Origin: a virus
DNA: 22,936 nucleotides
IMG/VR virus record: IMGVR_UViG_3300037586_003966
Span: 1-22,936 of that record
Strand: one strand, 5' to 3'
Shown here: piece after piece, positions 3,471 to 22,729 of the stretch
How positions within the stretch are numbered: position 1 is the first letter of the stretch
Layout: every line of letters begins with the position of its first letter
Notes under the pieces: generated by a model
What the model saw: the letters and a program-made list of their open reading frames with translations, nothing else
What the model was told of the DNA's origin: nothing
Database searches by the model: none
Program-made: the position numbers and the translations under genes

Positions 3471-5273
3471 CTAGCTAGTAGCGCCTGCCTCTCCAAGGAG
3501 ACCGCGTACGATAACAAGACCGTACATATCGGGTCGCACCATCTTCTTGGCGTACCGCGTCATCACGCCCTTGCGGGGCACGAAGTCTTCGGGACCAAAG
3601 ATAGTGGGAGTGGTCTGCAGCGGCACATAAGGTGCATATACATATCCACTCTCAAGGAAAGAGCTTCCGCGGCGACCAACCAGAATCACCGAGCGTGGGA
3701 AGTAGGGGTCAACATAGACGTCGAACTTCTTCGTCAGTGAACCGACCTTCACAGCGCCGATGGAACCAGTCTCATCGTCAGCAGTAACGCTTGCGCGGAA
3801 ACCAGCGGTGAACTCAAGGACGTTAGCCACTTCAGGTCCGCAGACGATGAAGTTAGCACCACCCCGTAGAGTCTTACGGTGGATCTGCGCCGACACATCA
3901 TTGATGGTCTCAGCCAGGGTCTCATACCACTCAGACACAGTACCGGTGAAGTCAGGAGCAGCCGAAGATGCGCCAATTTCCCTACCAGTTGTGCGCTCCA
4001 CGAACAAGCCGGGAGAGCGGGCCCAGTAGTAGGTACCAGCCTTAGCACCGATAACCAGATCCTCAAGGATCTCGCGGTCAATCTCAAGAGCAATCTGCTC
4101 AGAGAGGATGCTAGTAAGCTCGACCTCGGCGTCAAGGTTGTGATAGGCATTTAGATCCTGTCCCAACTCTGGCGTCCACTTAGCCTTGAGCTTCTTGGTG
4201 ATAGCGGTCACCGCCACGGAATCGACCTTGATGTCAATCTCGGGGATGAGTGCCTGGTTTTCCAACCCCCACACTGTGGTACCGATGACGGAACCAAGAG
4301 CATTGCTCGTGGTAAAGTTATCATCGATTGGGAAGGACAACTGAGCGTTAGATGAGGTAATGGAAAGAACACCATCACCACCAGCGGCAGAAGAACCCAA
4401 CAGAGGCATTGCGCCACTGGTTGCAGTCCAAACTAAATTAATCTTCCAGTTTGCATTGCTGGGATCCTCGACACTAGAACCGGAAGAGATGGTCGTAAGA
4501 CGACGCACCAGCTTAACGGTTGCACCAGTTACACTATCTTCAGTTAGAGCAACCAAATCCTCAATGTTGAACTGAGCCAGGTTACCGACGCTTGCGCCAG
4601 TTAACTCAGTAACAACAACAGGGGAACCGGACAGATCCACATCATAACGTGTGAGAGCATCCAGGGTCGCCTGGTTTGCGGTAGACAAGGGATTTGCTCC
4701 CGAGCCACCAACAGCGCCGGCTGTACCGGAAGCGACGAGAACGCCACCACCAATATATAGACCAGCTGAACCGGTTGGCGAAGCATAACCGTTGTTCAAC
4801 GCATAAGGACCTGCCTCAGCATTGTCACCGGAAAGATCAACACCGCCAGTCAACTGTGAACCAACGACGCCACCACCATATAGTGACTCTTCGGCCGAAC
4901 CATAACCCAAACGGGGTAGGCCAGGACCGCTCGTAGACGTAGTAAAGTCTAGGAAGAAGATGAGACCACTTGGTAGACTCATCGGCTGAACGCTAACTAA
5001 ATCGTTTGCGATCAGACCCGCGAACACACGACGAACGATGGGGAATGCGACGGCTGCGAAACCTTCGACGTCTCCACCAGACATGGTGCTCTGCTCACGG
5101 AGTAGCTCTTTCGCCTGGTTTTCCAGTAGGCGAGCCATACCTTGACGAGAACGCTCTTTGCCCAGACCCTCTAACAGTCCGGTACGCTCCCACTTAGTTA
5201 ATAATGCATGACCTTCGGCGCGCATGTCGCGATTGACAACACCCTCGGTCAGCCTTTCAATAATATTAGACAT
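3471..5273 (-). CDS. 23: major capsid protein, T4 gp23-like precursor
   Basis: A 600-residue HK97-fold capsid precursor. The start at 5273 (MSNIIERLTEG) has a near-perfect TAGGAGGTGAT site. A longer frame to 5285 would use the GTG inside that site. The order of blocks follows T4 gp23. First comes an N-terminal KWERTGLLEGL...LLENQAKE region, then PIVRRVFAGLIANDLVSVQPM. A Gly/Ser-rich variable section follows, then LKAKWTPELGQDLNAYHNLD with EIALEIDREI-type helices. The C-terminal part has ANFIVCGPEVANVL, KFDVYVDPYFP and YVYAPYVPLQTTP. The protein is longer than T4 gp23 (521 residues), mainly in the central Gly-rich section, which may carry a surface insertion. The N-terminal LLRE/QST sequence fits the L-x-E cleavage rule of the T4 prohead protease. 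The gene follows the scaffold-like gene by 23 bases and is closed by a strong terminator. Confidence 0.96.
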   Translation of the reverse strand: MSNIIERLTEGVVNRDMRAEGHALLTKWERTGLLEGLGKERSRQGMARLLENQAKELLREQSTMSGGDVEGFAAVAFPIVRRVFAGLIANDLVSVQPMSLPSGLIFFLDFTTSTSGPGLPRLGYGSAEESLYGGGVVGSQLTGGVDLSGDNAEAGPYALNNGYASPTGSAGLYIGGGVLVASGTAGAVGGSGANPLSTANQATLDALTRYDVDLSGSPVVVTELTGASVGNLAQFNIEDLVALTEDSVTGATVKLVRRLTTISSGSSVEDPSNANWKINLVWTATSGAMPLLGSSAAGGDGVLSITSSNAQLSFPIDDNFTTSNALGSVIGTTVWGLENQALIPEIDIKVDSVAVTAITKKLKAKWTPELGQDLNAYHNLDAEVELTSILSEQIALEIDREILEDLVIGAKAGTYYWARSPGLFVERTTGREIGASSAAPDFTGTVSEWYETLAETINDVSAQIHRKTLRGGANFIVCGPEVANVLEFTAGFRASVTADDETGSIGAVKVGSLTKKFDVYVDPYFPRSVILVGRRGSSFLESGYVYAPYVPLQTTPTIFGPEDFVPRKGVMTRYAKKMVRPDMYGLVIVRGLLGEAGATS

Positions 5274-6548: not shown

Positions 6549-7670
6549 TTATGAGCCCATCTTCCCAATAATCCACCATTTTTTACCATCTGATTGGAGC
6601 GTGAGAGTAGAGTAGCTCATCTTAAGTTCAATGCTCTTCTTAAAATCAATCTCACCTTCTTCCACTTTCACTGTCAAAAGATTGGATTTGAGTTTAAACT
6701 TATCACTGTTGATTTTTTTAATCACGAGAATGCGGCCCGGATTATTGCATGCTGCTGGGATGGTTGCTACTCCTTTGTTTTTGGACGTGTCATAAAGAAT
6801 GGTATAGTCGTCGGGTTCGATGGTATAAGCCGGCGCAGAAATTGTTTTGAGACTTTGAGTCACCACTCCTTCAAAAATGGTGCGGCCGGTCACAATTAAT
6901 TCATCCGCTATTACTTTTCCATCTACATTTAAAATGTTGCTCTTAGAGTCGAAAGTTAAAGCCGGGGTCGAACTAAACTCTCCTTTTCCCTTTAGTTGAA
7001 CACTGTTGGCTACTCCCGTAGGCTTGGGCATTTTAATTTTAACATATGAATCAAACAAATTAGCCAAGGTAGTGTTGCGCACATCGCCCCGAGAAGTGTC
7101 GTGAACCATCAACATATCGTCATCACTTAAATTTTGTCCGTCGACAGTGATATTGAGACAACTTTTAGGTTGTACCGCAAGGCGCCCATTTTTAAAACCT
7201 AGGCCCCCTTTGGGTACTACTTTAATTCCTACCCCTTTTTCATCCACCGACACCCCTTGGGCGGCCTGTACTTGAACCGCACTTCTAACATTTGCCAATC
7301 CTACTCCCAAGTTTATAGATCGAGCGGGAATGGTACCCATAAATTGATTCGCGGGAAGGTTAAACAATTTTTCGCCTGAGCCTTCAAGACTTTCTGCACG
7401 AATCTTTTTAGTTACCAACATTTGCCCGTCAAACGTCAAATTAAATTCTGCTTTGGCTTTGGTGTTGGTCTGATAAGTTAAGATGGCATTTTTACTTCCG
7501 CCTTCAATTTCAGTAATTGCCGGGGGAACGATTTCACGTCCATCTTTAGACAAGAGGGTTCCTATTATTGTTTTTGTACCTTTTATCACTTGATTAGCAT
7601 GAGCATCCACAATCTCTGTATGCTGCGTAGTGCTATAATCTACGGTTCCATCTAAAACGTTATAAGCCAT
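6549..7670 (-). CDS. fibre-like virion protein with C-terminal beta tip domain
   Basis: A 373-residue protein with GAGAGGAT before ATG 7670. The N-terminus MAYNVLDGTVDYS resembles MAYNALSGTV of the 344-residue protein at 9831-10865. Both continue with a xxGxLxxxDG segment, an NALLT-like turn and a (N/F)LxFDGxxL strand, so they look like distant paralogs. The middle is beta-rich (ANVRSAVQVQAAQGVSVDEKGVGIKV). The last 95 residues form the shared tip domain: YTIEPDDYTILYDTS, VATIPAA, GRILVIKKI, then LTLQSDGKKWWIIG. Fibre or whisker function is inferred from the beta-repeat character and tip domain. The attachment point on head or tail is unknown. It lies after a terminator and before the scaffold-like gene, so it may share late expression with the capsid genes. 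Confidence 0.8.
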   Translation of the reverse strand: MAYNVLDGTVDYSTTQHTEIVDAHANQVIKGTKTIIGTLLSKDGREIVPPAITEIEGGSKNAILTYQTNTKAKAEFNLTFDGQMLVTKKIRAESLEGSGEKLFNLPANQFMGTIPARSINLGVGLANVRSAVQVQAAQGVSVDEKGVGIKVVPKGGLGFKNGRLAVQPKSCLNITVDGQNLSDDDMLMVHDTSRGDVRNTTLANLFDSYVKIKMPKPTGVANSVQLKGKGEFSSTPALTFDSKSNILNVDGKVIADELIVTGRTIFEGVVTQSLKTISAPAYTIEPDDYTILYDTSKNKGVATIPAACNNPGRILVIKKINSDKFKLKSNLLTVKVEEGEIDFKKSIELKMSYSTLTLQSDGKKWWIIGKMGS

Positions 7671-9830: not shown

Positions 9831-10865
9831 TCAGCAGATGAAGTATTTTCCTACACCATTACAATAAATCTGGATAGATGCATAAGGTGATTCCAAAACT
9901 ACTTGATTTGTACCATCGACCACATCGTCCCCAGCGCATGCAATTGTCACCGGATGGGTGTGGGCGGCGCCTCCTTCATCTTTAATTACAAACGTCTGGC
10001 CGTTTAAAAGGTTAGTGGCCGCGGGCAAAGTCAGCGTAATGGACGAGGTTAAAGTATCCGATTGAATCCCTACAAGGTAGTCCTGGTCCTTAATAGTGTA
10101 GTCATCAGCTACAACCTTACGGATATATCCAATTCCACCAAACATCTGAATTTGATAAGCCCGAAGTTTAAAGAGTCGGCCCGGATCCATCCAAATGCCA
10201 TTGTTCTTAAAGTTCATAAACCCGACGTCAAAACCTTTGGTAGTGCTCCCCGAGCCAAACTTTAAGTTATCGTCAGACACGCTTAAAGCATCAGAACCAA
10301 AATAAATGGTGCTGCTGGATACATATAGATTGCGCCATGGTTTCGCCGATGATCCCAGATCATAAGTGTCGCCTATCGAAGGGATGAGGTGGCCATCCAC
10401 GTCAGTATTCCCACTCAAGAGAGAAGTCCCAACGACCGTCAAGGTGTGGGTGGGTGCCACGGCAGATCCTACATTAATACTGCTAGTAGTATAAGCAGTC
10501 GACCCATTAACTTCAGTAAAAATCCCCCCACCAGCACCACCACCACCAGCACTAATGCCCGTGAGGCGGCTGCCGTCCCCCATTAAATAAGAAGCAGACA
10601 TGCCAGTGCTTGCCGTTAACTCGCCTGTAATGGTTAAAACAGTGCCATCAAACTTGAGGTTCCCTTCACAAACGAGATCATTGGCATCACCTCCCACATT
10701 CGTAATGAGGGCATTATTGGTGGCGTTTGTAACGCGCGGAACATTGATGATAGAGGAACCATCCGAAGTGCTCAAATTACCGGAAACAATGTTTCCAATT
10801 ATCAAATTGCCAGGGGTATACTCTTGAGCGGCTAATACGGTGCCCGATAGCGCATTGTAGGCCAT
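9831..10865 (-). CDS. fibre-like virion protein with Gly hinge and beta tip domain
   Basis: A 344-residue protein with GGAGGG before ATG 10865. The N-terminal 115 residues (MAYNALSGTVLAAQEYTPGN, then LSTSDGSS, NLKFDGTVLTITGEL, YLMGDGSRLTGI) parallel the paralog at 6549-7670. A Gly-rich hinge (GGGGAGGG) follows. Then comes a TLTVVGTSLLSGNTDVDGHL / DLGSSAKPWRNLYVSS segment. The GxxxYDLGSxxxPWRNLY pattern is widely found in phage fibre and adhesin shafts. The final 95 residues are the tip domain: ADDYTIKDQDYLV, SSITLTLPAA, GQTFVIKDEGG, DGTNQVVLESPYASIQIY. Ending KYFIC, it lacks the usual WW(I/V) aromatic pair. Fibre function is inferred from these patterns. Whether it sits on head, neck or baseplate is not visible. 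Confidence 0.85.
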   Translation of the reverse strand: MAYNALSGTVLAAQEYTPGNLIIGNIVSGNLSTSDGSSIINVPRVTNATNNALITNVGGDANDLVCEGNLKFDGTVLTITGELTASTGMSASYLMGDGSRLTGISAGGGGAGGGIFTEVNGSTAYTTSSINVGSAVAPTHTLTVVGTSLLSGNTDVDGHLIPSIGDTYDLGSSAKPWRNLYVSSSTIYFGSDALSVSDDNLKFGSGSTTKGFDVGFMNFKNNGIWMDPGRLFKLRAYQIQMFGGIGYIRKVVADDYTIKDQDYLVGIQSDTLTSSITLTLPAATNLLNGQTFVIKDEGGAAHTHPVTIACAGDDVVDGTNQVVLESPYASIQIYCNGVGKYFIC

Positions 10866-12315: not shown

Positions 12316-12714
12316 CTACTTCATTGCTTGCCAAATTCGGGAAGCATTCCCAAAAATGGAACTAATATCTACTCCGTTGTCGCGAGGATCTCCTAGATCC
12401 GCATGGCCCTGCTGGGGTTCGGATTGATGCATCGGTTCTGTTCCTTCAAACAAATCCACTCCGGCATAGGCATCGCTTCCCACCGCTTCCATTAGCTTTT
12501 TTCGATGAGCGTGTAGTTGCTGCCGCGACTGTTTAGCTTGCTGTTTAATAGGAGGCTCAGCAGGGATATTTTTAGTTTCCACTATTACGTTGGAATGCAG
12601 GCCGCGGGCCACCTCGGCCACCACATTTGAGAGAAGCCCTTCTTCCAAAAGGACTTCGTGAATACACTCTTTAACCAATGGTTTAATTAGCTGTTTTAAG
12701 TCAGCCTTCTTCAT
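12316..12714 (-). CDS. small head-associated protein with N-terminal tag, unknown
   Basis: A 132-residue protein starting at ATG 12714, overlapping the protease gene by 14 bases. The N-terminus MKKADLKQLIKPLVKECIHE continues into VLLEEG, giving an L-x-E site and a helix of the tag type found on several neighbours. After that come LSNVVAEVARGLHSN, a Lys/Gln-rich linker, and a C-terminal segment DPRDNGVDISSIFGNASRIWQAMK. T4 has small prohead core genes (67, 68) just before gene 21, and this gene lies just after it. A core or internal head protein is therefore plausible. No known family motif beyond the tag is visible. Confidence 0.8.
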   Translation of the reverse strand: MKKADLKQLIKPLVKECIHEVLLEEGLLSNVVAEVARGLHSNVIVETKNIPAEPPIKQQAKQSRQQLHAHRKKLMEAVGSDAYAGVDLFEGTEPMHQSEPQQGHADLGDPRDNGVDISSIFGNASRIWQAMK

Positions 12715-13309
12715 TTAAAACCTCATTTAATAGCCGATTAATTCTATCTGCTTTGGTAAATACTTTATTTTGATACTCTCGGGCCTCTTTCATCATGAAA
12801 GCTCCAGGCGTTGAGGGCTCCGACACAAAGTCAAAACAAATCAACTGGAAGTCATCTTCCACAATTGTCTGATTTTGATCTTCTCGGACGGACCCCATAC
12901 CACGAGAGGAAATCCCAAGACTGACGCCGGACTTCACTAACTCTTGTAATACTTTGCCGGCCGGTGTGTCCAGTACTTTAACCTTGCCCATTACATCGGT
13001 GTCACGCCACCAAATCTCGGTCACCAAATGAGATGCATTCTTCAAATTGATAACCGAATCTTCCGGGTGGTCCAGTTCACCTAAGGCACGGCGCTCCTTG
13101 ACGAGCTTTCCGTAATTCTCCACCTCTTTCATTAATACCTTATGCGGATAAATGCGTCCGTTGCCATTAACCGTGTCGGCTTTTTGCATAATGCCAGATA
13201 AAATCATACCGCCATTAGCCACATATCTTTTTTCGTCTTCGGTTAAAAGATCCTGGCAAACGCCGCCTTCGCATAATTCGTAGTATTCTCGTAAAAGTAC
13301 TTTGCTCAT
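12701..13309 (-). CDS. 21: prohead maturation protease, T4 gp21-like
   Basis: A 202-residue serine protease of the T4 gp21 type. The GELDHPE motif supplies the catalytic His at residue 81, and GISSRG at about 132-137 supplies the catalytic Ser (134 or 135). The block GIMQKADTVNGNGRIYPHKVL near residues 39-60 is the typical start of this fold, which resembles the herpesvirus assemblin. The length is close to T4 gp21 (212). It would digest the scaffold and trim the capsid protein and other prohead proteins at (L/I)-x-E sites before DNA packaging. It starts at ATG 13309 with an ATGA overlap to the upstream gene and overlaps the next gene by 14 bases, so it is translationally coupled within the head block. 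Confidence 0.95.
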   Translation of the reverse strand: MSKVLLREYYELCEGGVCQDLLTEDEKRYVANGGMILSGIMQKADTVNGNGRIYPHKVLMKEVENYGKLVKERRALGELDHPEDSVINLKNASHLVTEIWWRDTDVMGKVKVLDTPAGKVLQELVKSGVSLGISSRGMGSVREDQNQTIVEDDFQLICFDFVSEPSTPGAFMMKEAREYQNKVFTKADRINRLLNEVLNEEG

Positions 13310-14001
13310 TGCTTATTCCTATAAAGTAGTTGCATTTCTTCTCTAATAATTTGCTCTAATTGATGACGTGTTGCTTTCCAATGGCCTTCCTCCATTCCTG
13401 CTAATTGTTTGGCTGCGCCAGCAGCCGTCGAAACGGGGGCGGCGATCTTTTCGCCCGCAGATCGCGCCTGAGTCCAGACCGAATCTTTGCCAAGCATCTT
13501 GGCACGAGTCAATGCATCTTTGACTGCTTTTTTAACTGCTGGATCTCCGGGAGCATCGTCGATCAAGTCTATTTCAAACCTTAGCATCTTCTTGGTCTCC
13601 GCAGGAACATTGATAAGCCGTGCAGTCAAATCCTTCTGGATAGCAGGAATCAAAGTCGATGCATCAATCTGCGCATTTTTACCAGCCGCTTTTTGCGCGG
13701 CCGTATATAACCTCTGCGCGAACGCCACCAGTGTTTTTTCATCAAGTTCTACGTTTTTAAGCTGTTTATTCTCCCACCACTTGTTGACGGCCAGAAATAA
13801 TGGCGCGAGTGTTCCTGCTGCAGCTACTCCGCCAATCCCTCCGGCCGGAAGCGTGGCCAGAGCCGACAGGGTGATGGCCGCACCGACGCCTGCGCCGGCA
13901 TAGCCGCGGATCTTTCCTGCCTTGGTACCCGTGAGGTCCAACCTCACTTCCTGAAGTTCTTCACTAACTATCTTTTTTAATTGTGATTTGGTTATTTTCA
14001 T
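13306..14001 (-). CDS. tagged protein with Gly/Ala hydrophobic hairpin, candidate internal/ejected head protein
   Basis: A 231-residue protein with AAAGGAA before ATG 14001. The N-terminal MKITKSQLKKIVSEELQE is a tag shared with other genes here. A second copy, HQLEQIIREEMQ, lies at the C-terminus. Residues about 29-75 are Gly/Ala-rich and hydrophobic (GYAGAGVGAAITLSALATL, then GGIGGVAAAGTLAPLFLAV), compatible with a membrane-inserting hairpin. The rest is soluble and helical (LVAFAQRLYTAAQKAAG, KKMLRFEIDL). It sits directly before the prohead protease gene. The tag contains V-S-E and I-R-E, the second of which fits the L/I-x-E cleavage rule. An internal head protein that is ejected and enters the host membrane is a reasonable inference. 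A lysis or membrane role is the alternative. Confidence 0.8.
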   Translation of the reverse strand: MKITKSQLKKIVSEELQEVRLDLTGTKAGKIRGYAGAGVGAAITLSALATLPAGGIGGVAAAGTLAPLFLAVNKWWENKQLKNVELDEKTLVAFAQRLYTAAQKAAGKNAQIDASTLIPAIQKDLTARLINVPAETKKMLRFEIDLIDDAPGDPAVKKAVKDALTRAKMLGKDSVWTQARSAGEKIAAPVSTAAGAAKQLAGMEEGHWKATRHQLEQIIREEMQLLYRNKQ

Positions 14002-14083
14002 TATGTTATTCCTTTAGTCTGCGGGCATTACCCGCCTGGTTCAACATCCCTTCTTGCAATTACGCACGGGCTGTAGCATCCAC

Positions 14084-14404
14084 TTAACTGTCCAAATGTT
14101 CTGATCCATGTTCAACTCCTATTTGTAAGCCACTATCGCCAAAAATCATATTAAAAATATAAGAGGTTCCAGAAGAAAGCCATCCCAAAAGAAAGAAATT
14201 AGCGACAGTTACATCAAAATTAAATAGTTCTGTAAACGGAGAAAGTAACATCAAAAACCATCCGACGTGAAAGCCCATACACATAGGGCACGTTGCCATA
14301 TGTTTTAATCTTCCCTTTTTGGGTCGCACCCTATTAAAAATCTTACCATAAACAAGAATTTGAGTGAGGCCGTACGCTGCTAATATAAAAGTTAATAGTT
14401 CCAT
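14084..14404 (-). CDS. small membrane protein with CPMC motif (DUF1360-like)
   Basis: A 106-residue protein whose ATG 14404 directly abuts the stop of the upstream gene. Hydrophobic segments lie near residues 3-19, 44-59 and 66-88. Between the first two is a basic loop (RVRPKKGRLKH) leading to ATCPMCMGFHVGWF. A CPxCxGFxxG motif beside membrane segments recalls the DUF1360 family of small phage and bacterial membrane proteins, which has no established function. The two Cys may bind metal or form a disulfide. It lies between two genes whose products carry a tag and a hydrophobic hairpin. Possible roles are in lysis, superinfection exclusion or membrane remodelling. None is shown. Confidence 0.75.
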   Translation of the reverse strand: MELLTFILAAYGLTQILVYGKIFNRVRPKKGRLKHMATCPMCMGFHVGWFLMLLSPFTELFNFDVTVANFFLLGWLSSGTSYIFNMIFGDSGLQIGVEHGSEHLDS

Positions 14405-15046
14405 TTAAGTTGCCACCAATTTAGTATCATCAGTTCTGGCGTACGCAGACTGGTTGTTGAGCCAATCCACCAAATGGTTAGTGATATCCGGGAGTGGCGC
14501 TTCATCATTGGCGCTATCGAAATAGGTTTTTAATTCGTCTACCACGTCGCTTTCTTGAATATAAACTTTTTGAAACTTATCTTCGATTAAATCTAGGGTT
14601 TGTTGATCCACACAAAACGTCTCTAAAAACTGTTGATAGGTGTTATTGTTTTCATTGGTGCTCCCTAACATAAAAATACGCCCCAGGGCCTTGGCGGCTT
14701 CTCCTCCTTCAGCCACGTCTATGCCGGCCCCAACGGCGCTGGCGGCCATGGCGGCTCCTGTTCCGGCTATTGCCACCGGGGCCGACGTCGCCACACCAAC
14801 GCCAGCTACACCCAATTTGGCTAAAGGAATGGCTATTTTCTTTGCTTTGGCGAGGTAATTGCGCCAATGGCCATCTTGAGCAATCTCTTTCTCGCGTTGG
14901 TTTAGTTTTTCTTGATCTCCCAAATACTTGCTGATGTCAACTGCTAATTTAAAATCTCCCACATTGAAGGAAGTATCGCATGCGTCAAATTCTTCTACTA
15001 TAAAATTTTCCCATCTCTCTAATATTAGTTTCATCTGCGTCATCAT
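14405..15046 (-). CDS. tagged protein with Gly/Ala hydrophobic segment, candidate internal head protein
   Basis: A 213-residue protein. The start at 15046 (MMTQMKLILERWENFIVEEF) is chosen because AGGA lies 6 bases upstream and it leaves no overlap. The frame can be extended to 15100, but without a site. The N-terminal NFIVEE resembles the T4 internal-protein signal (which ends FIAE) and contains an I-V-E cleavage site. Residues 70-109 are a long Gly/Ala-rich hydrophobic stretch (IAIPLAKLGVAGVGVATSAP, then GTGAAMAASAVGAG). The C-terminal half is acidic and helical (FCVDQQTLDLIEDKFQKVY). The plan of tag, soluble part and Gly-zipper-like segment is the same as in the protein at 13306-14001, though the sequences differ. 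Function is unknown. Internal or ejected protein is an inference. Confidence 0.8.
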   Translation of the reverse strand: MMTQMKLILERWENFIVEEFDACDTSFNVGDFKLAVDISKYLGDQEKLNQREKEIAQDGHWRNYLAKAKKIAIPLAKLGVAGVGVATSAPVAIAGTGAAMAASAVGAGIDVAEGGEAAKALGRIFMLGSTNENNNTYQQFLETFCVDQQTLDLIEDKFQKVYIQESDVVDELKTYFDSANDEAPLPDITNHLVDWLNNQSAYARTDDTKLVAT

Positions 15047-15054
15047 TCTATATC

Positions 15055-15594
15055 CTAAATCGTATATAAATAATAGAGAGAATAAGGATCTCTCACCCAA
15101 CCCTTTCGGATAGAACCCTTTTCAACCGCCTGCGGAACCTCTCCAAGTTCAGTAGAATCTTCTTTGTCTGGATGTACAAATTCGTCATCGGTCATGGAAA
15201 TAATTGCTTCTGTAGATTCAAAATAAGGTCGTTCCTCCTCAATAAAACGAGAAATATTGATGAGCGTCATTTTAGCACTATTAAGTTTTTCAGAATATGG
15301 CTTTTCCATCGTCGCCTCCATCGATCCATAAAAGGAGCCTCCTTGAATCGACTCTGGTATTATTAAGCCTTTTTTGCGTAGGAAAGAAAACAATCTATTT
15401 TGCGCGCCGTACGATAGATCTGTGATGTTCTCCTTCGGAAAGGCCACCACCTTGGTCTTAGCTGCCGACAACACAATATCAATATCGCCATGATCAAAGA
15501 TCATTAAATCGCCATTCATACTTTTACGAATGTCAAGTTCTAAAGTGACTGAAGGCGCGTGGGCGCTATTCCCAATTTTAATTGTTATTGCCAT
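15055..15594 (-). CDS. unknown protein of the head-assembly block
   Basis: A 179-residue soluble protein, overlapping its upstream neighbour by 17 bases. It has a beta-rich N-terminus (MAITIKIGNSAHAPSVTLEL), a NGDLMIFDHGDIDIVL strand pair, then LSYGAQNRLFSFLRKKGLI and PESIQGGSFYGSMEA, with an acidic helix and a C-terminal GWVRDPYSLYYLYTI. No membrane segment or known catalytic motif is visible. Tight coupling to the portal-proximal gene and to the tagged hairpin gene suggests a head or portal assembly role. I do not recognise the family. Confidence 0.8.
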   Translation of the reverse strand: MAITIKIGNSAHAPSVTLELDIRKSMNGDLMIFDHGDIDIVLSAAKTKVVAFPKENITDLSYGAQNRLFSFLRKKGLIIPESIQGGSFYGSMEATMEKPYSEKLNSAKMTLINISRFIEEERPYFESTEAIISMTDDEFVHPDKEDSTELGEVPQAVEKGSIRKGWVRDPYSLYYLYTI

Positions 15595-16414
15595 CAGTGT
15601 AGATTTCCTTTACAAGAGCTTGAGTACACATCAACATCATCAACGTTTCTTCATTTACGGTACTATTGGAAAAGTCATCGAGACGCTCAATTACTTGATG
15701 AGTTTTTTTAATCATTTCTTCGTCGTTTTTAATATGTTCGGTTGTTTTAGCCCTTTCCAACATCATCTTTAAACGTCCTATTTCTTCATTTAAAAACATT
15801 TTAAGCTGGACAGCATTATCCATAAAAGATGAAATATAGTATCCTAATAATTCTTTTTGTTCTGCTAAAAGCCCATCAGTGTATTTGGTGTTAAACTTTT
15901 CCACGAAGGTTTTATACACCACATTATCCATCGGCGATGAAGTATCGCTGTCTATTATTAACTCGCCCATGTTTTTTACAATGGTGTTTTCTAAAATGAT
16001 TTGATCCCGGGGAGAGACCTTGTCAGAAAAAATCTGTGCAATTGTGGCCAGCGTTTTATAATTGGGTACAAAGTTATTGAAAACAGCGGGAGATAATTCC
16101 GTATTAACATCCCGAATGAGTTCACTTTGCTGCTTAAAAAGCGCCGGCGTGTCAATCATGCGTTGATGGAGTTTTACTTCTTTGATGATCTTTTCAGAGG
16201 TAAGCTGATCCAAATTTTGATTCTCATATAACGAGCGGTAACAATCTAAATCTTTTCTTAGCGGAGTACCCCTCTTAAAATGTTTTTTAATGAGGGAGGC
16301 GGCTATTTCTTTTCTCGCAGTATCCTTTTTAATAATAGCTACGGTTGCCTCTTTGATAAGAGCTTCGTAGACGAAGGCACTATTTCGCTTTTTGTTGTGT
16401 CTGAATTTCATCAT
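15578..16414 (-). CDS. unknown helical protein following the portal gene
   Basis: A 278-residue, mostly helical protein overlapping the portal gene by 35 bases. GGAG is spaced better for the second ATG (16411) than for the first (16414), so the first Met may not be used. The N-terminus KFRHNKKRNSAFVYEALIKE is basic and is followed by long helices (LTSEKIIKEVKLHQRMIDTP, EQKELLGYYISSFMDNAVQL, HVIERLDDFSNST-like). There are no signal or membrane segments. The position right after gp20 is where T4 keeps the prohead core genes 67/68, but this protein is far larger than those. A portal-associated or core role is a guess from position. Confidence 0.8.
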   Translation of the reverse strand: MMKFRHNKKRNSAFVYEALIKEATVAIIKKDTARKEIAASLIKKHFKRGTPLRKDLDCYRSLYENQNLDQLTSEKIIKEVKLHQRMIDTPALFKQQSELIRDVNTELSPAVFNNFVPNYKTLATIAQIFSDKVSPRDQIILENTIVKNMGELIIDSDTSSPMDNVVYKTFVEKFNTKYTDGLLAEQKELLGYYISSFMDNAVQLKMFLNEEIGRLKMMLERAKTTEHIKNDEEMIKKTHQVIERLDDFSNSTVNEETLMMLMCTQALVKEIYTDGNNN

Positions 16415-18380
16415 CTTGCTCCGTGGGATTTTCTTGATTTTTTTCCAAGTCAGTCAAAAGAGTGCGCACCGATTCGTTAATTCTAAATAATTTGTCTTCT
16501 TCGGTTTGTTCTCTCAAACTATAAATAGACTGGTCATCTTCATAAATACTCATACCTTCCGCCGTTGGTACAAATCCTTTTCCGAGAGAACTTAACCCAT
16601 CGGCATACCCCGGAAAGACATTTCGAAGCGTGCTGCTTGCTTTTTCGCCAGCATATTGAGATTTATTCGAACGCGTCCTAGCGCCAGCAGATCGTTTATC
16701 TACTTTAACGGGGTGATAGACTTTGCCTTTGGCTCCCGGTGTAAGACGTGGAGAATCCCGGGTGCCGGGGGGAGCGGCGAGGAGTGCCGATTCTTCTCCC
16801 CCTCCTGCCTCCGCGGCCGGCATTTCTTCGGGGCCTCCGAGTTCTTCTCCTCCCATATCTCCACCTAAGTCGCCACCTAAGTCGCCCCCTAAGTCGCCCC
16901 CTATGGCGCCACCAGTTTCGGCGGCTGCGGCTGCTTCAGCCACTTGCTGCAGCGCTGCGTCGTGTTTACGATCATAATACATTTCACGTTGGCTTCGCAT
17001 AAATTCATCATGGGAGAGCCCAAAGATGTGATCGGATACCCATCGTCGGGAGAAGTAACCTTCGGTGGCAGATGCAGCAATATCAAACTTTTGTTTCCAA
17101 TGTTCAATTTCTTGTAGCTCTGCGATCTTTGAAGGATTATTAAGAGCTAACGTAAACCCAAGTAAATCATCTCCGCGGAATCCCAAAGTATAAAGATGAA
17201 TAATTCCAATCTTGGTAAGTTCTGCGATGATGACTCTCTGAAGACGCTGAATGGTTCTGGAGAAACGAATGTCTTTCTGCGCTAGGGTGGTCTTATCTTC
17301 TTCGGCTCCTTCGCCCATTGTAAGATACGACTGAGGAATCTTGAGCGCAGAAAACAACTTGTCGCGTAAATATTTAATGTCATCAATTGCAGTAATGTTC
17401 TGGGCGCCGGCGAGTGAAACAATGTCTGTTGCCGACCCGGGCCGAATCGGAATGAAATAGTCTTCCTCAATGCTCATGGGGTTATAGCGCAAATCAATGC
17501 GCCCAGACTCTGGGTTAACCACCGAATGTCGTTTAAGTTGCGTGACTACCTTTTGCATATATTGTTCTACATCTTGTGGTGGAATTGCACCGACATCGAT
17601 CTTAAAGACCCGGCGTTCGGATGAACGAATGACGCGGTACGCCATCATTGCGTCTTCCATCAGTGTTAGCTGGCGCCATATACGGCGAGAAGCCTCAAGA
17701 ATAGAAGTACCATAGGGCATATATTTATCATTACCTAAAATGCGGAAGTGTGCGATCTGCCAATTCTCAAACGTCATTCCGGCTGAGTTCCATTGATACT
17801 GAACGTAGTTAGGGTTCGTGCTGTCTTGGCCTTCTAAACGCTCCACTTCGGCGGGGGGCAATGCGATGGCAGACTTCACGCCATACTTTTCATCGATGTC
17901 CAAATACAAAAAGAAATCCCCGTACTTGCACATCGTACGACTCCATCCAAAAAGATTATACTGTACGTTTAAAATATTTTCGTACAGAACACTCAAAACT
18001 GCCTTAATTTCTTCGTTAGAACATTTCACTCTTAACATGGGTCGTAAGTCTGAGTGGGTTGTCATCTCGTCGGCGTAAATATCCAACGATGAAGCCAACT
18101 CAGGCATATATTCCATCTGATCAAAATCCACATAACGTTCTGAGCGGCGCTGATTGGCCACCGCGTTGCTGGATAATATCTCTAGGGGGTTATAAAGGGT
18201 CTTTTTAAACTGTTGTCCCGATGCCGTCTTGAATCGAGAAGAGAATTTATCTAAATGCTGCCGTCGGATACGTCGACCTGACTGCGACCTATAATTAATA
18301 ATCGGGCCCGAAAATAATCGAGTCAGGGCTTTAAATAATTTAGTTTCAGGGTTGTCTGGGTTTCGTTTGGGTCGTGCCAT
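16380..18380 (-). CDS. 20: portal protein, T4 gp20-like
   Basis: A 666-residue portal that forms the dodecameric vertex through which DNA is packaged. The N-terminal part has a basic stretch (YRSQSGRRIRRQHLDKF), then YVDFDQMEYMPELASSLDIY-type sequence with the T4-like order of ADEMT and DLRPMLRVK. The core has FGWSRTMCKYGDFFLYLDI, then FRILGNDKYMPYGTSILEAS, RVFKIDVGAIPP, and IRPGSATDIVSLAGAQNI with LRDKLFSALKIPQSYL. These are characteristic gp20 blocks. It is about 140 residues longer than T4 gp20 (524). The extra length is a low-complexity C-terminus with GGDLGGDLGGDLGGDMGG near residues 490-511, followed by a Pro/Gly section and a charged tail. It follows the terminase gene by 8 bases. Confidence 0.95.
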   Translation of the reverse strand: MARPKRNPDNPETKLFKALTRLFSGPIINYRSQSGRRIRRQHLDKFSSRFKTASGQQFKKTLYNPLEILSSNAVANQRRSERYVDFDQMEYMPELASSLDIYADEMTTHSDLRPMLRVKCSNEEIKAVLSVLYENILNVQYNLFGWSRTMCKYGDFFLYLDIDEKYGVKSAIALPPAEVERLEGQDSTNPNYVQYQWNSAGMTFENWQIAHFRILGNDKYMPYGTSILEASRRIWRQLTLMEDAMMAYRVIRSSERRVFKIDVGAIPPQDVEQYMQKVVTQLKRHSVVNPESGRIDLRYNPMSIEEDYFIPIRPGSATDIVSLAGAQNITAIDDIKYLRDKLFSALKIPQSYLTMGEGAEEDKTTLAQKDIRFSRTIQRLQRVIIAELTKIGIIHLYTLGFRGDDLLGFTLALNNPSKIAELQEIEHWKQKFDIAASATEGYFSRRWVSDHIFGLSHDEFMRSQREMYYDRKHDAALQQVAEAAAAAETGGAIGGDLGGDLGGDLGGDMGGEELGGPEEMPAAEAGGGEESALLAAPPGTRDSPRLTPGAKGKVYHPVKVDKRSAGARTRSNKSQYAGEKASSTLRNVFPGYADGLSSLGKGFVPTAEGMSIYEDDQSIYSLREQTEEDKLFRINESVRTLLTDLEKNQENPTEQDDEIQTQQKAK
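16849..16912 (-). repeat. GGDLGG repeat in portal C-terminus
   Basis: Four tandem 12-base units, on the plus strand near cc(a/c)cctaagtcg, encode GGDL/GGDM units. The copies are nearly identical in DNA, so the tract is young or prone to slippage. The same peptide repeat occurs in the scaffold-like protein. Confidence 0.8.
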
Positions 18381-18388
18381 AGTTTATC

Positions 18389-19972
18389 TCACTTTATAAT
18401 CCACATGAATTCATCATATAGATTTTTTGCTTCTGACATTTTATCAAGTACGCTATCGTTTTTGTAGCCTTCCTGCCCTTTAACCCGCGTATTAAAGGTG
18501 GTTGTGCTAGTGATGATCGAATCTACGAAAGCCTTTTGATAGTTTAAGTCTCGCGCGTTCGATTGAATGGCCGTATCGCGGACCCAACAAGCAATAGCAA
18601 GAGCCATGACCAAATCGTCATTGTATCCTTTCATTGCTTGAGGCTTCCCGTTTCGCCAAATAAATGTCTTCATTTCATTAATAGTTCGTGTAGAATATAT
18701 CTTAATTAGTTTATTTCTTATAAACTCTTCCAATTTGGCCACGATAAGGGGGCGCGTTTTCATAGAGGTGGTAAACCCCGCAATAGTATTAGAACGATAT
18801 TCGGCTTGATGCTGTTCAATATACTCGTGTGTGGATTTGACCGAATAATATAAATTAGGATAACGATATTCTACTAATTTGTCCAACACGGTATATCCAA
18901 TATTATTATTCTCAACCACCATCATAGCATTTCCGAACTCTCGTCCAATTTGATTAAGCATATTAGCAAATAAATCCGGGGTAACCTTTCCTTGATATTC
19001 CCCTATCACTTCTAAGGTTTCTATCTTAATGATATGAAAGGTGGAAAAATCTGATGCATCTCCGCGGGCAACATCTACTACTTGTAAATAATTGCACGTA
19101 GGATCATATTCTTCCCAAATCCAAAAATTGCGGTCCACGCCGGTACGGTATTTAGGTTCACACGTTCCCGCATGCAACCATTCCATACACGCAGGATCGA
19201 TAACGGTCTCACCGGATGTATTGAAATTGCACATCAACTCTTGGGCAATCTGTCGCTTGGACATATTCTTCGTTTCTTTCTTAAACCATTCTTCATCCCG
19301 ATCTGGGTGAATGTCCCACTGAAAAGTTGTAATGTTAAAATTGTTGGCGCCTGCCTCGGCATCGGTGCACGTTTTATGAAACCAGTTACCTACGCCATTA
19401 GGTGTGGATATTGCAATACAACGCCCACCGGTCGAGAGGGTGGGATATAAACCAGTCCACAACTCTTCCAGGCCTTCAATGTGGGCAGCCTCGTCCAACA
19501 CTAGCAACGACAACGCCTCCGAACGACCAGCGTCTCCAGACGTCGAGGCTGCCTTGATAGAGGAGCCATTAGAAAGTTCAAAGGATGTACGGTTGTCTAC
19601 GCTAATTTCGGCAATGCGGAGCCAATCTGGTAACTGCTTCATAATGCTTTTGACTTTCTTCACCAAGTTTCCTGCGGTTTGAAACTTGGTTGCCATTACA
19701 AGAATAGCCTTATCGCGATGGAACAACATCATCCACACGATATAGCCCGCAGTAATGGTTGAAATGCCTAACTGGCGTGCCTTTAACACTACATTAAAAC
19801 GATAATCATTAAAATCTTTTAAGAGATCGTCTTGATAATCATAAGTGTCAAATAAAATTTGCCCGTGCATCGGGTGAGATATGCGGGCATACGTGGTTAG
19901 AAAGTACGATGGATCTTTACCGCACTTTAATATTTCTTTTACTCTTTGCTTTTTGTCTAATTGAAAAGTCAT
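18389..19972 (-). CDS. 17: terminase large subunit, T4 gp17-like
   Basis: A 527-residue packaging motor and nuclease. The ATPase domain has KARQLGIST at about residues 64-72 in the Walker A position, LLVLDEAAH with the Walker B Asp-Glu at 160-161, and AISTPNG near 187-193 as the coupling motif. The nuclease domain has VVDVARGDASD (Asp300), MMVVENNN (Glu354) and GYNDDLVMALAIA (Asp452/453), the three acidic sites of the RNase H-like fold. The length is slightly below T4 gp17 (610). The Walker A lacks the usual GKT: Lys64 stands before ARQLG and Ile-Ser-Thr follows, a variant also seen in other phage terminases. The start at ATG 19972 has only a weak ribosome site. No small terminase is identified with confidence. 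Confidence 0.96.
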   Translation of the reverse strand: MTFQLDKKQRVKEILKCGKDPSYFLTTYARISHPMHGQILFDTYDYQDDLLKDFNDYRFNVVLKARQLGISTITAGYIVWMMLFHRDKAILVMATKFQTAGNLVKKVKSIMKQLPDWLRIAEISVDNRTSFELSNGSSIKAASTSGDAGRSEALSLLVLDEAAHIEGLEELWTGLYPTLSTGGRCIAISTPNGVGNWFHKTCTDAEAGANNFNITTFQWDIHPDRDEEWFKKETKNMSKRQIAQELMCNFNTSGETVIDPACMEWLHAGTCEPKYRTGVDRNFWIWEEYDPTCNYLQVVDVARGDASDFSTFHIIKIETLEVIGEYQGKVTPDLFANMLNQIGREFGNAMMVVENNNIGYTVLDKLVEYRYPNLYYSVKSTHEYIEQHQAEYRSNTIAGFTTSMKTRPLIVAKLEEFIRNKLIKIYSTRTINEMKTFIWRNGKPQAMKGYNDDLVMALAIACWVRDTAIQSNARDLNYQKAFVDSIITSTTTFNTRVKGQEGYKNDSVLDKMSEAKNLYDEFMWIIK

Positions 19973-19986
19973 GCATTGTAACTATT

Positions 19987-20565
19987 TTACTTTTCTACTT
20001 CCGAGCCTTTTTTGCGGGTATCGTTCTGTGGGCGCTTACCTTTCCAACCGCCTAGGTCGAGGAAGGCGCGCCAGCCTTTTTCAATGCGGTCCGTAGATCC
20101 TTCATCCACCATCACCGCCTCTCCAATGCCGCCAATCTTGTACTTCTGATAAACAGTCGCCCAAGAGTGGACACGGGACGTACTCTGTACAAGCACATCG
20201 ACTTCGCCTTCTTTGGTGAGGGCAACACTATTACCCGTCACATTCTTGTATTCCTTTTTGAGGAACTTAACGATGTCGGCAACACGCTGCTCCATTTCGG
20301 CTTCGAAGCCCGGAGCATACACTTCTTTAATTTGCAGTTCGGTTTGATAACTGACGCACAGGAGGGGGCCCATGAACCGAATGTTAAAGCCATCCATCAC
20401 GCGACGATCAATGAGGGGATTTCCTTCTTCTCTCTTGAGTCCTGCGGTGCGAACTTCACCGTCGGGAGAAAAGCTCTCGATGTGGGTACCGTCGTATGCA
20501 TTTGCTGCGGCCTGTGAAAGTCCGCGAATAACATCGAGTACAGTAACTGAGTTGTTTTTAGCCAT
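19987..20565 (-). CDS. unknown protein upstream of terminase
   Basis: A 192-residue soluble protein with GGAGACC before ATG 20565, overlapping its upstream neighbour by 8 bases. It contains VLDVIRGLSQAAANAYDGTH, GLKREEGNPLIDRRVMDGF, then FMGPLLCVSYQTELQIKEVY. A helix follows (FEAEMEQRVADIVKFLKKEY) and then VDVLVQSTSRVHSWATVYQK. The C-terminus is basic. Its place just before the large terminase is where a small terminase subunit often lies, but no DNA-binding helix-turn-helix is obvious and the family is not recognised. The beta-helix-beta pattern with a long central helix resembles small virion-associated folds. Role unknown. Confidence 0.8.
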   Translation of the reverse strand: MAKNNSVTVLDVIRGLSQAAANAYDGTHIESFSPDGEVRTAGLKREEGNPLIDRRVMDGFNIRFMGPLLCVSYQTELQIKEVYAPGFEAEMEQRVADIVKFLKKEYKNVTGNSVALTKEGEVDVLVQSTSRVHSWATVYQKYKIGGIGEAVMVDEGSTDRIEKGWRAFLDLGGWKGKRPQNDTRKKGSEVEK

Positions 20566-20941
20566 TATTTGGTCTCCATCCTTTTATCCATCTCTCTTCT
20601 CTATCTTCGACATATTCAATGTAGCATCTATAGCAACAGTCAAATTTGACTAGACAAACATCATCCATTGATCTTCTCGCGAAAGAATCACAGATCGGAC
20701 AACATTTCAAAGATTCTCTATTAAGTAGTTTTTTTGATATCTTAATACCATTTACATCTATTTTTTCTTGCCACACTTCGTTTTGCTGAATTTTGTGATA
20801 AAACTCACGCATTTGTTCAAGATATTCTTCTTCTTTGGTCTCGTCCCAGTTTGCTTTGGGGTTCTGTATAGCTTCTGCTCCATACTTTTCTGCGATGGCT
20901 TTTTCAAATGCAGCCAGCGTATCCCAATCTTTCTCTGTCAT
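20558..20941 (-). CDS. Cys-rich putative zinc-binding protein, unknown
   Basis: A 127-residue protein with an ATGA overlap to its upstream neighbour. The N-terminal half is an acidic helical region (AFEKAIAEKYGAEAI, EEYLEQMREFYHKIQQNE). The C-terminal half has Cys at 80, 81, 84, 96, 102, 103 and 106. The CPIC and C(C)YRC pairs form a likely zinc ribbon, followed by EYVEDREERWIKGWRP. The spacing fits a structural zinc finger with two CxxC knuckles. Its place two genes before the terminase suggests a packaging or late-regulation role, but no family function is known to me. Confidence 0.8.
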   Translation of the reverse strand: MTEKDWDTLAAFEKAIAEKYGAEAIQNPKANWDETKEEEYLEQMREFYHKIQQNEVWQEKIDVNGIKISKKLLNRESLKCCPICDSFARRSMDDVCLVKFDCCYRCYIEYVEDREERWIKGWRPNNG

Positions 20942-21369
20942 TTAGAGGCCTCAATCCAATTCGTCGCGACGTTTACAATTCCCACTGTTACTACAACACC
21001 GGTCGCCGTTCCTCCCGCAAACCATAACCAATTGTTGCGTGGCGATTGCTTTTTTAATGTTTCGGTGAGTGCTTCAATTTCTAAATCTTTTTTCTCAATC
21101 AACAAATCTGTTTCTTCTTTTAGTGCATCATAGCGAATTTGAGCATTCTGTAGGTCCAAATGAAACTTTGTTCCTTGTTTGTCTAATTGAAATTCAATCT
21201 CTAAGTCGCACTCACGCTGCCAAAATTCTTTGTCGGACATAAGAATGGCGGTGGCCTCCGGATCGAATAAGACTCCCTCAAACGGTGCAGGTTCCTCTTC
21301 CGCCAAAACAGAAAACTTTGGCCCCTCGGCCAAAGCAACACTGGTCAACAACAGTATACTACTCCACAT
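20938..21369 (-). CDS. exported coiled-coil protein with C-terminal membrane anchor
   Basis: A 143-residue protein. The start ATG 21369 gives a clean signal peptide, MWSSILLLTSVALA/EG. The longer TTG frame to 21393 is less likely, although GAGGAG lies near it. No lipobox Cys is present. The exported part has a coiled coil (ALKEETDLLIEKKDLEIEAL). The C-terminal hydrophobic segment (WLWFAGGTATGVVVTVGIV) near residues 114-135 would anchor it in the inner membrane. It overlaps the next upstream gene by 11 bases. With that N-anchored coiled-coil partner it forms a pair that resembles a spanin arrangement, but the topology is not that of a known outer-membrane spanin. Confidence 0.75.
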   Translation of the reverse strand: MWSSILLLTSVALAEGPKFSVLAEEEPAPFEGVLFDPEATAILMSDKEFWQRECDLEIEFQLDKQGTKFHLDLQNAQIRYDALKEETDLLIEKKDLEIEALTETLKKQSPRNNWLWFAGGTATGVVVTVGIVNVATNWIEASK

Positions 21370-21742
21370 ACTCAAAACCGAATAACTCCTCAATATCTTT
21401 GGCTAGCTGTTCTGGATCTTTAATAAAATCGTGCAGGTATTCTTGATACTTTCTATCTCTTTCGCTTCTGATTGTTTCCAAATTCACTTCATAGTTCCGT
21501 TGAAGTTTTTCCAACTCTTCTTTATATGTCCGGAGTGCAGCATCTCGTTGTCTCAACTCCTCATCGTGAATGGCTTGCAAGCCTGTGATTTGGTCTTGTA
21601 AGCTTGTACGCATAGACTCATGTACTTCTTCTAAACGATTATAATCGGCTCGCATTTTACCCATTACTACCAACAAACATAATATTAGTAATGTCTCTTT
21701 CCAGTTCTTGCGGAAAAATCTAAAAATGCTTCCAATATTCAT
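21359..21742 (-). CDS. N-anchored coiled-coil protein (i-spanin-like)
   Basis: A 127-residue protein starting at ATG 21742 with an ATGA overlap. A basic N-terminus (MNIGSIFRFFRKNWKE) leads into one membrane helix near residues 16-29 (TLLILCLLVVMGK). A long coiled coil follows to about residue 110 (RLEEVHESMRTSLQDQITGL, ELRQRDAALRTYKEELEKLQ), ending in an acidic tail. This N-in/C-out plan is that of phage inner-membrane spanins (Rz type), which act with an outer-membrane partner to fuse the membranes at lysis. Family-level sequence identity cannot be judged. The overlapping next gene encodes another exported coiled coil, supporting a pair. No endolysin or holin is seen nearby. Confidence 0.75.
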   Translation of the reverse strand: MNIGSIFRFFRKNWKETLLILCLLVVMGKMRADYNRLEEVHESMRTSLQDQITGLQAIHDEELRQRDAALRTYKEELEKLQRNYEVNLETIRSERDRKYQEYLHDFIKDPEQLAKDIEELFGFEYVE

Positions 21743-22083
21743 TCTTTACTCAAATAGGAGGGATTAAATAGCGATTCGCCAGCGCGTTCGCGGCGCCACT
21801 CTTTGACCATATTGCCAAAACGATCCGAAAGAAGTTTTTCAAAGCTTTCCTGTGCTTCCGGGCCCTGGTCTTCCAGAGCTTCATACATGTCCATCATATT
21901 AAGAAACACTTTCTTAACATCGTCCATTGTGTAACCCGGGCCCGGGCGACTAAGAGGGCCCGGGCGTCCAACTTTTCCCAAGCTCTGGGCTGCAGACTTT
22001 TCGCTATAAGTCAACCCTGTAGGAACAGCTTCGTTAAGCTCTTCCAAAATAATCTGTACAAGTTTGTCTTTGGTGATTTTCAT
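21739..22083 (-). CDS. small tagged protein, candidate internal head protein
   Basis: A 114-residue protein. The start at 22083 (MKITKDKLVQIILEELNE) is set by GGAGGAATTTAAAA directly upstream. A 7-residue extension to 22104 would start inside that leader and overlap the previous gene. The first 18 residues are the MKxTKxxLxxIIxEE tag with an I-L-E site. The middle is Gly/Pro-rich (GKVGRPGPLSRPGPGYT), then helices (VKKVFLNMMDMYEALEDQGP, FEKLLSDRFGNMVKEWRRER). Its first 20 bases of leader and first codons are nearly the same as those of the upstream gene. Inclusion in the capsid is inferred from the tag. Confidence 0.8.
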   Translation of the reverse strand: MKITKDKLVQIILEELNEAVPTGLTYSEKSAAQSLGKVGRPGPLSRPGPGYTMDDVKKVFLNMMDMYEALEDQGPEAQESFEKLLSDRFGNMVKEWRRERAGESLFNPSYLSKE

Positions 22084-22098
22084 TTTTAAATTCCTCCT
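22064..22098 (-). promoter_or_regulatory. duplicated ribosome-binding leader, copy 1
   Basis: The minus strand reads AGGAGGAATTTAAAAATGAAA. It is identical to the leader at 22362-22388 from AGGAGG to the second codon. The GGAGGA site is built from the last codons of the upstream gene, which therefore ends in Gly-Gly-Ile. Confidence 0.75.
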
Positions 22099-22373
22099 GG
22101 CCAATCTTCGTCTGGGGGATCGCGATCCATTGATGCGGCGCGCCGATCTAGCTCGGGTAATACTATATTTTTGACTTCGTCAAGCAAGTCCTTAAGCATT
22201 TGAACGTCTATGCCGTACGATTCGAGGGAGTCCCGCTGGTCCCGATCATAGGCTAAAATTACATCTGCAATATCTCTGGCGAGTTCAGACTCGCGTCGGT
22301 CTATTCCTAATTCAAATAGGCGGGACACTTCTTCCTTGATAAGTTGTTTAAGTTGTTTCTTTGTGACTTTCAT
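22086..22373 (-). CDS. small tagged acidic protein, candidate internal head protein
   Basis: A 95-residue protein with GGAGGAATTTAAAA before ATG 22373. It begins MKVTKKQLKQLIKEEVSRLF, the same tag as its downstream neighbour, with an L-I-K-E-E site. The remainder is acidic and helical (LARDIADVILAYDRDQRDSL, MLKDLLDEVKNIVLPELDRR) and ends EDWPGGI, where the last three residues come from codons that form the next gene's ribosome site. No known enzymatic motif is visible. It differs from the downstream gene after residue 20, so only the tag and leader appear shared. Confidence 0.8.
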   Translation of the reverse strand: MKVTKKQLKQLIKEEVSRLFELGIDRRESELARDIADVILAYDRDQRDSLESYGIDVQMLKDLLDEVKNIVLPELDRRAASMDRDPPDEDWPGGI

Positions 22374-22388
22374 TTTTAAATTCCTCCT
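22362..22388 (-). promoter_or_regulatory. duplicated ribosome-binding leader, copy 2
   Basis: The second copy of the AGGAGGAATTTAAAAATGAAA leader, again carved from the Gly-Gly-Ile end of the upstream gene. The two copies lie 290 bases apart. Confidence 0.75.
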
Positions 22389-22729
22389 ATCGTAAATCGG
22401 TTTCCTTTAGGGGGTACCCTCCATCTAAGTGAGTATCCAGTCCACTCAATTTCACATAAATAGTTTGTTTTTCCTTCTAACAAATATTGTACCAGGCGAT
22501 GATAGCCATCAGTTACTAAAAATTTGTTTTCTTCTCTAATCCAACAAACCTGAATAGGTCCTGCGGTTCGGCTTGTTTTTCCTTCGCGAATATTCTTATA
22601 TGTAGCTATAATTCCATAATTAGAATCACCCGAATTGATTATTAAATCATTAAAATGAAGTTCACAAATTTCTGTTTTTTCAATTAAACCAAATTGTTTC
22701 CACTTTTTTAAACTTTCGTTTAAAATCAT
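22376..22729 (-). CDS. ParB/sulfiredoxin-like small protein
   Basis: A 117-residue protein with an ATGA overlap to its upstream neighbour. It carries a PIQVCWIREENKFLVTDGYHRL segment near residues 58-79, whose V-DGYHRL...G pattern matches the ParB/sulfiredoxin nuclease-like fold (typically DGxHR). Earlier, ICELHFNDLIINSGDSNYGI could be the substrate-facing strand. The rest of a full ParB (helix-turn-helix) is absent, so this is a stand-alone domain, as in several phage proteins with nucleotide- or DNA-related roles. It begins MILNESLKKWKQFGLIE, which ends in an L-I-E site but lacks the MKxTK start. The function here is unknown. Confidence 0.75.
   Translation of the reverse strand: MILNESLKKWKQFGLIEKTEICELHFNDLIINSGDSNYGIIATYKNIREGKTSRTAGPIQVCWIREENKFLVTDGYHRLVQYLLEGKTNYLCEIEWTGYSLRWRVPPKGNRFTIGGI

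Follow-up and report, generated by a model that had tools for sequence, protein, structure and literature searches.

Tagged Proteins in the Window

The virus record IMGVR_UViG_3300037586_003966 (positions 1 to 22,936; this whole stretch of 22,936 nt is referred to as the window) carries all its identified genes on the minus strand, among them head genes of the T4 type and four proteins that share a short N-terminal sequence, or tag, in front of bodies without detectable similarity to one another (Table 1). Two classes of tag, each 14 residues long, can be distinguished, A (MKITKSQLKQIIKEE-type, on three of the proteins) and B (MKLILERWENFIVE, on the fourth), and in uncultured marine phages of the T4-like kind one or the other stands at the start of many proteins that are otherwise unrelated. 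A sequence-only reading of the window had proposed a single common tag on at least five otherwise unrelated proteins, which would send them into the prohead to be trimmed there by a gp21-like protease. The sharing of tags and the unrelatedness of the remaining sequences were borne out, as was the protease, which matches Pfam PF03420 with 111.9 bits (cut-off 27; E 3.5e-32) and contains the strings GELDHP and GISSRG, in which the catalytic His and Ser may lie. The single tag, however, resolves into two classes, and four of the five proteins are secure.

The protein that drops out is encoded at 12316-12714. Its start (MKKADLKQLIKPLVKECIHEVLLEEG) has a proline where the tags have Glu14, and it was rejected as a portable tag because relatives have a conserved ortholog of it, all of one family, immediately after the protease gene (family consensus MKKxxLKxLIKPxVKECIHExLxEEG, or more narrowly MKKxxLKQLIKPxVKECIHEVLxEEG). 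The tag-B gene does carry its tag, but the start at 15046 assumed earlier adds MTQ in front of the tag's own ATG. Orthologs of this gene keep tag B on bodies that have diverged (32-56% identity among the near-full-length ones), and the ortholog of the 22086-22373 protein at locus L161 (1425-1712) retains tag A. The 13306-14001 protein has no relative in named phages. The gene with a possible diverged tag B, 22376-22729, adjoins two tag-A genes.

Table 1. Features of the window and the basis of their assignment; a slash within a motif marks a possible or probable cut.
Feature	Position	Strand	Basis or remark
Terminase large subunit (TerL)	18389-19972	-	Profile search
T4-type portal protein (gp20)	16380-18380	-	Profile search
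Prohead protease, Peptidase_S77 (T4 gp21 family)	12701-13309	-	Profile search
Major capsid protein, gp23 family	3471-5273 (or to 5285)	-	Profile search
Putative gp22-like scaffold	5297-6484	-	Gene position alone, no family match; conserved L-[RK]-E17
Probable propeptide cut site of the capsid protein, LLRE60/Q	5094..5105	-	Alignment of relatives, 101 sequences
Tagged protein, 95 aa, no family match	22086-22373	-	Begins MKVTKKQLKQLIKEE
Tag A (MKVTKKQLKQLIKE), residues 1-14 of the 22086-22373 protein	22332..22373	-	Possible cut RLFE21/L
Tagged protein, 114 aa, no family match	21739-22083	-	Begins MKITKDKLVQIILEE
Tag A (MKITKDKLVQIILE) of the 21739-22083 protein	22042..22083	-	Possible cut LNE18/A
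Tagged protein, 231 aa, directly upstream of the protease	13306-14001	-	Begins MKITKSQLKKIVSEE
Tag A (MKITKSQLKKIVSE) of the 13306-14001 protein	13960..14001	-	Possible cut LQE18/V
C-terminal copy of the tag core (RHQLEQIIREEMQLLYRNKQ), 13306-14001 protein	13309..13368	-	Scan for internal and C-terminal cores
Tag-B protein, 209 aa, placed like T4 gp67/gp68 between the portal and protease genes	14405-15034	-	Begins MKLILERWENFIVEE
Tag B (MKLILERWENFIVE) of the 14405-15034 protein	14993..15034	-	Tag ATG at 15034
Possible diverged tag B (MILNESLKKWKQFGLIE), weak	22376-22729	-	Judged by eye only (W-x-x-F, then L-x-E)
Conserved ortholog behind the protease, tag look-alike helix	12316-12714	-	Comparison with relatives

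Frequency and Conservation of the Two Tags

Tag A was counted in 81 protease-bearing loci, i.e., the window and 80 loci chosen by protease similarity only. A rule that uses residues 1-12 matched 74 of the 1055 gene starts in these loci but none of their 5279 internal methionines. Conservation extends past the residues used for selection (Glu14 in 66 of 69 and Glu15 in 64 of 69 cases) and drops afterwards, and strong conservation extends to the non-cleavage residues K2, K5, L8 and I11. Differences between tag-A sequences at the three codon positions amount to 0.31/0.18/0.48, and this prevalence of third-position changes points to selection on the peptide.

Across 2.9 million viral contigs, the listed matches to a degenerate DNA pattern are a lower bound on its occurrence. 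A looser pattern occurs in 29 of 30 large records with 1-18 copies each, its reversed version in none of the same 30, and tag A is absent from all 54 control records (11 named phages and 43 contigs that had been picked by means of a random 14-mer). At their densest, in stretches of about 10 kb, tagged genes number 17 in L154 and 16 in L202. Searches of named phages by tblastn and blastn with short tag queries did not reveal a clear tagged isolate, and neither tag sequence was found printed in open-access papers, so an earlier description elsewhere is possible; the sole open-access paper containing both "capsid targeting sequence" and "cyanophage" was a T4 review.

Tag B, with the consensus MKL(L/I)(M/F/L)ENWRK(F/Y)LNE, is portable as well. 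When it was picked on residues 1-8 only, the positions behind them were still conserved, with Phe or Tyr at residue 11 in 55, Leu, Ile, Val or Met at residue 12 in 66 and Glu14 in 57 of 77 cases. Loci chosen without regard to tag B contain 80 half matches to it in 2754 kb vs. 1 in 986 kb of random control loci, and 14 of the 25 tag-B contigs also carry tag A.

Bodies Behind the Tags

Grouped by their bodies, the 638 tagged proteins make up 435 families unrelated to one another, of which 354 are singletons. Homologous bodies are moreover found under tag A in one phage and under tag B in another, with identities of 47-67% (L185/L333, 47% over 192 residues; L166/L409, 63%; L184/L171, 67%; L219/L366, 61%; L154/L149, 66%). 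In the pair L219/L366 the close likeness starts exactly behind the hydrophobic-x-Glu site (...VLSE/KDDRCTRIAKRK vs. ...SLNE/KDDRCTRIAKRK).

Most tagged bodies had no match in Pfam and PHROGs (two sets of 150 and 102 representatives, which overlap in part). Those that could be named belong to NUDIX, HAD-like, GNAT, HD, zeta-toxin-like, pentapeptide repeat, DUF192, M23 peptidase and GDSL families, each found in one or a few of these representatives, and a Foldseek search with one tag-swapped cargo yielded nothing significant. In two AlphaFold models, which derive from shallow alignments and have a mean pLDDT of 65 and 59, the tag, including tag B of the 14405-15034 protein, is predicted as a low-confidence lone helix before a better-folded body.

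The core of the tag also recurs inside or at the C-terminus of A-tagged bodies, in 23 copies vs. 0 in reversed sequences and 0.28 in shuffled ones, although a few of the internal copies may be the starts of in-frame genes. Several are no more than about 22 residues away from the C-terminus, including the one in the window (others in L028, L045, L048, L056, L095, L217), and these C-terminal copies are mostly carried by the protein directly before the protease. In T4, the Alt protein is cut at both ends (PMC9026906). A GHYHDMG domain was observed as a free tagged protein in L070 and embedded in longer proteins of L033, L139, L195, L218 and others, where an internal stretch like LIREVLAE precedes it, as would suit a polyprotein from which the same protease frees it.

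Possible Cut Sites and the S77 Head Module

In 101 relatives the LLRE of the capsid protein is nearly invariant and mostly followed by Ser or Ala, and the protease N-terminus likewise contains a nearly invariant LLRE8 and LLTE24. The hydrophobic-x-Glu motif behind tag A resembles this LLRE/S or LLRE/A site. It occurs in residues 16-30 of 322 of 443 tag-A proteins vs. 24-27% of body windows, and the stricter form with two hydrophobic residues (hydrophobic-hydrophobic-x-Glu) in 149 of 443 vs. 4-6%; these and the following comparisons carry nominal p-values, since the genomes are related. Gly, Ala or Ser follows the tag-A site in 36% of cases (background 20%) and the tag-B site in 33%. A second site is found in 80% of the proteins with Glu at residue 15 vs. 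41% of those with a small residue there, or 38% vs. 6% by a stricter motif. Such a statistical trade-off is what would be expected if each presequence had to retain one usable site. For the cut proposed earlier, an L/I-x-E motif at the end of the leader is present and enriched; with Glu at residue 15, a second hydrophobic-x-Glu site 4-8 residues further on would be likelier to be used than Glu14 or Glu15.

Tagged genes are linked to phages with an S77 protease. Among contigs of 50 kb or more the protease gene was found in 18 of 26 with tag A and 13 of 25 with tag B, compared to 3 of 12 random contigs, and among tag-selected contigs with a length of at least 125 kb it was found in 18 of 19. A T4-type portal, too, is missing from 17 of the 20 tagged contigs that lack the protease, and in the other three it lies only near a contig end; hence no tagged contig of 50 kb or more, under either tag, was found with the head module but without a gp21-type protease.

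Comparison With Known Packaging Signals

In T4, a short leader is all that three internal proteins share, each of them an inhibitor of restriction enzymes that is injected (PMC12373910); residues 4 and 7 of the leader serve targeting, and residues 8 and 10 processing (PMC9026906). T4 ipII and ipIII start with MKTYQEFIAE, and with the glutamates aligned these four positions correspond to residues 8, 11, 12 and 14 of tags A and B, occupied by Y/F/I/E in T4, by W/F/L/E in tag B (Tyr also at residue 11) and by L/I/I/E in tag A. The tags therefore look like the T4 signal with four extra residues, about one helical turn, in front. They have in common with the IPII/IPIII leader that it stands on otherwise unrelated proteins, that Glu and a hydrophobic residue are preceded, in the same spacing, by two residues of hydrophobic or aromatic kind, and that the phages have a protease of the gp21 family and an L/I-x-E motif for its cut (PMC9026906; PMC12373910). 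They differ in having 14 rather than 10 residues, two classes and a sequence other than MKTYQEF, in the aliphatic L8 and I11 of tag A where T4 has aromatic residues, in the frequent second putative cut site behind Glu15, and in their presence on up to 17-18 genes per genome, with C-terminal copies.

An N-terminal stretch of P1 DarB is likewise sufficient to carry a foreign protein into the head, although the Dar proteins show no consensus and their signal is longer (over 9 and at most 30 residues) (PMC9024508). In phiKZ and SPN3US many head proteins are cut behind Glu by a distant relative of gp21 (PMC9026906), but by an S/A-x-E rule, and tag A was not found in phiKZ. The cyanophage P-SSM2 has the T4-type leaders MKSFKQFLEE and MKSFSQFLTE, which also stand on unrelated genes but have 10 residues and occur on only 2-3 genes here (L547, L548; genes 114, 115 and 194, one annotated as a cytidyltransferase). 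T4 and P-SSM2 have 10-residue leaders in place of tag A. In T4, the 54-aa hypothetical protein 61.1 (L545:467-631) starts with MKTFKEFIKED, close to the capsid-targeting sequence, and is possibly an unrecognised internal protein.

Proposed Function and Alternatives

We consider it likely that tags A and B are interchangeable, modular and removable prohead-targeting presequences, a greatly expanded variant of the T4 system. The sequence comparisons mostly favour the targeting and trimming proposed in the earlier reading: hundreds of unrelated bodies carry the tags, the register matches that of T4, a gp21-type site lies inside the tag or after it, and the phages concerned have an S77 protease. 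By analogy with T4, the amphipathic helix of 14 residues would bind the prohead core (scaffold) during head assembly, and the S77 protease would then cut after hydrophobic-x-Glu, at Glu14 when a small residue follows or, given Glu at residue 15, at the second site shortly behind it. Once freed, the body would stay in the head and probably be injected with the DNA, as are the T4 internal proteins.

Several observations weigh against this interpretation. L137 (record G018, 147 kb) carries five tag-A genes and one tag-B gene without S77, gp23 or a T4 portal, and may be a fragment or have another head type. Conversely, tag A is absent from the S77-bearing phages T4, KVP40, HTVC008M, P-SSM2 and the immuto phage, so that the protease alone does not imply tags. 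Tag-A bodies are acidic, with a median net charge of -5, whereas IPI-III of T4 are small and basic. Furthermore, 54% of A tags have no hydrophobic-x-Glu plus small residue near the tag, and a continuing amphipathic helix may supply part of the second-site signal.

The strong conservation of K2, K5, L8 and I11 and the C-terminal copies of the core next to the protease would also suit a helix that is never removed and serves as a lasting dock, by which proteins are built into the core of the prohead or some other part of the virion. The dependence of the second site on residue 15, the bias for small residues and the tag-swap junction exactly behind hydrophobic-x-Glu all speak for cutting, however, and we regard a permanent helix as unlikely. 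Slightly less probable again is a signal for degradation, regulation or transport elsewhere (tail, replication site or membrane), to which the head module would be linked only incidentally: many tagged genes do lie outside the head cluster and some bodies are enzyme-like (NUDIX, GNAT, HD, HAD-like) rather than structural, but the T4 register, the gp21-type sites, the tagged genes between portal and protease and the S77 link argue against it.

A leader common to two neighbouring genes of the window (GGAGGAATTTAAAAATG) could suggest that a DNA cassette of ribosome site and start region was copied between genes, with a functionless peptide. This origin was rejected as highly improbable, given that third-position changes prevail, that tag DNA is hardly more alike within a contig (identity 0.73) than between contigs (0.69) and that the upstream DNA is not shared (0.37 vs. 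0.35). Equally improbable is a chance likeness of amphipathic helical N-termini, which is contradicted by the counts at starts and internal methionines, the conservation of residues, the lack of reversed matches and the 0 of 54 control records. Removable prohead-targeting presequences thus remain our preferred explanation.

Neighbouring Genes

The gene at 5297-6484 is assigned to a gp22-like scaffold from gene order. A small, probably membrane-spanning protein is encoded at 14084-14404; it is conserved in most relatives, where it also precedes the protease. Three neighbouring fibre- or decoration-like proteins (6549-7670, 7774-9723 and 9831-10865) begin with MAYN(V/A)L(D/S)GTV or MAYK, which represents another shared terminus on differing bodies.

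Implications

We see about even chances that uncultured marine T4-like phages load and inject up to about 17 different proteins per virion by means of a general signal readable in the sequence, many of them enzymes and probably serving counter-defence, and that hundreds of unknown effector families can be read off by the tag alone. In common marine phages, protein families of unknown kind that bear one of the two related leaders run into the hundreds. Should the proposed function hold, sequence would suffice to list which proteins uncultured phages package and probably inject, and what phages deliver into the cell beyond DNA would become directly testable at scale.

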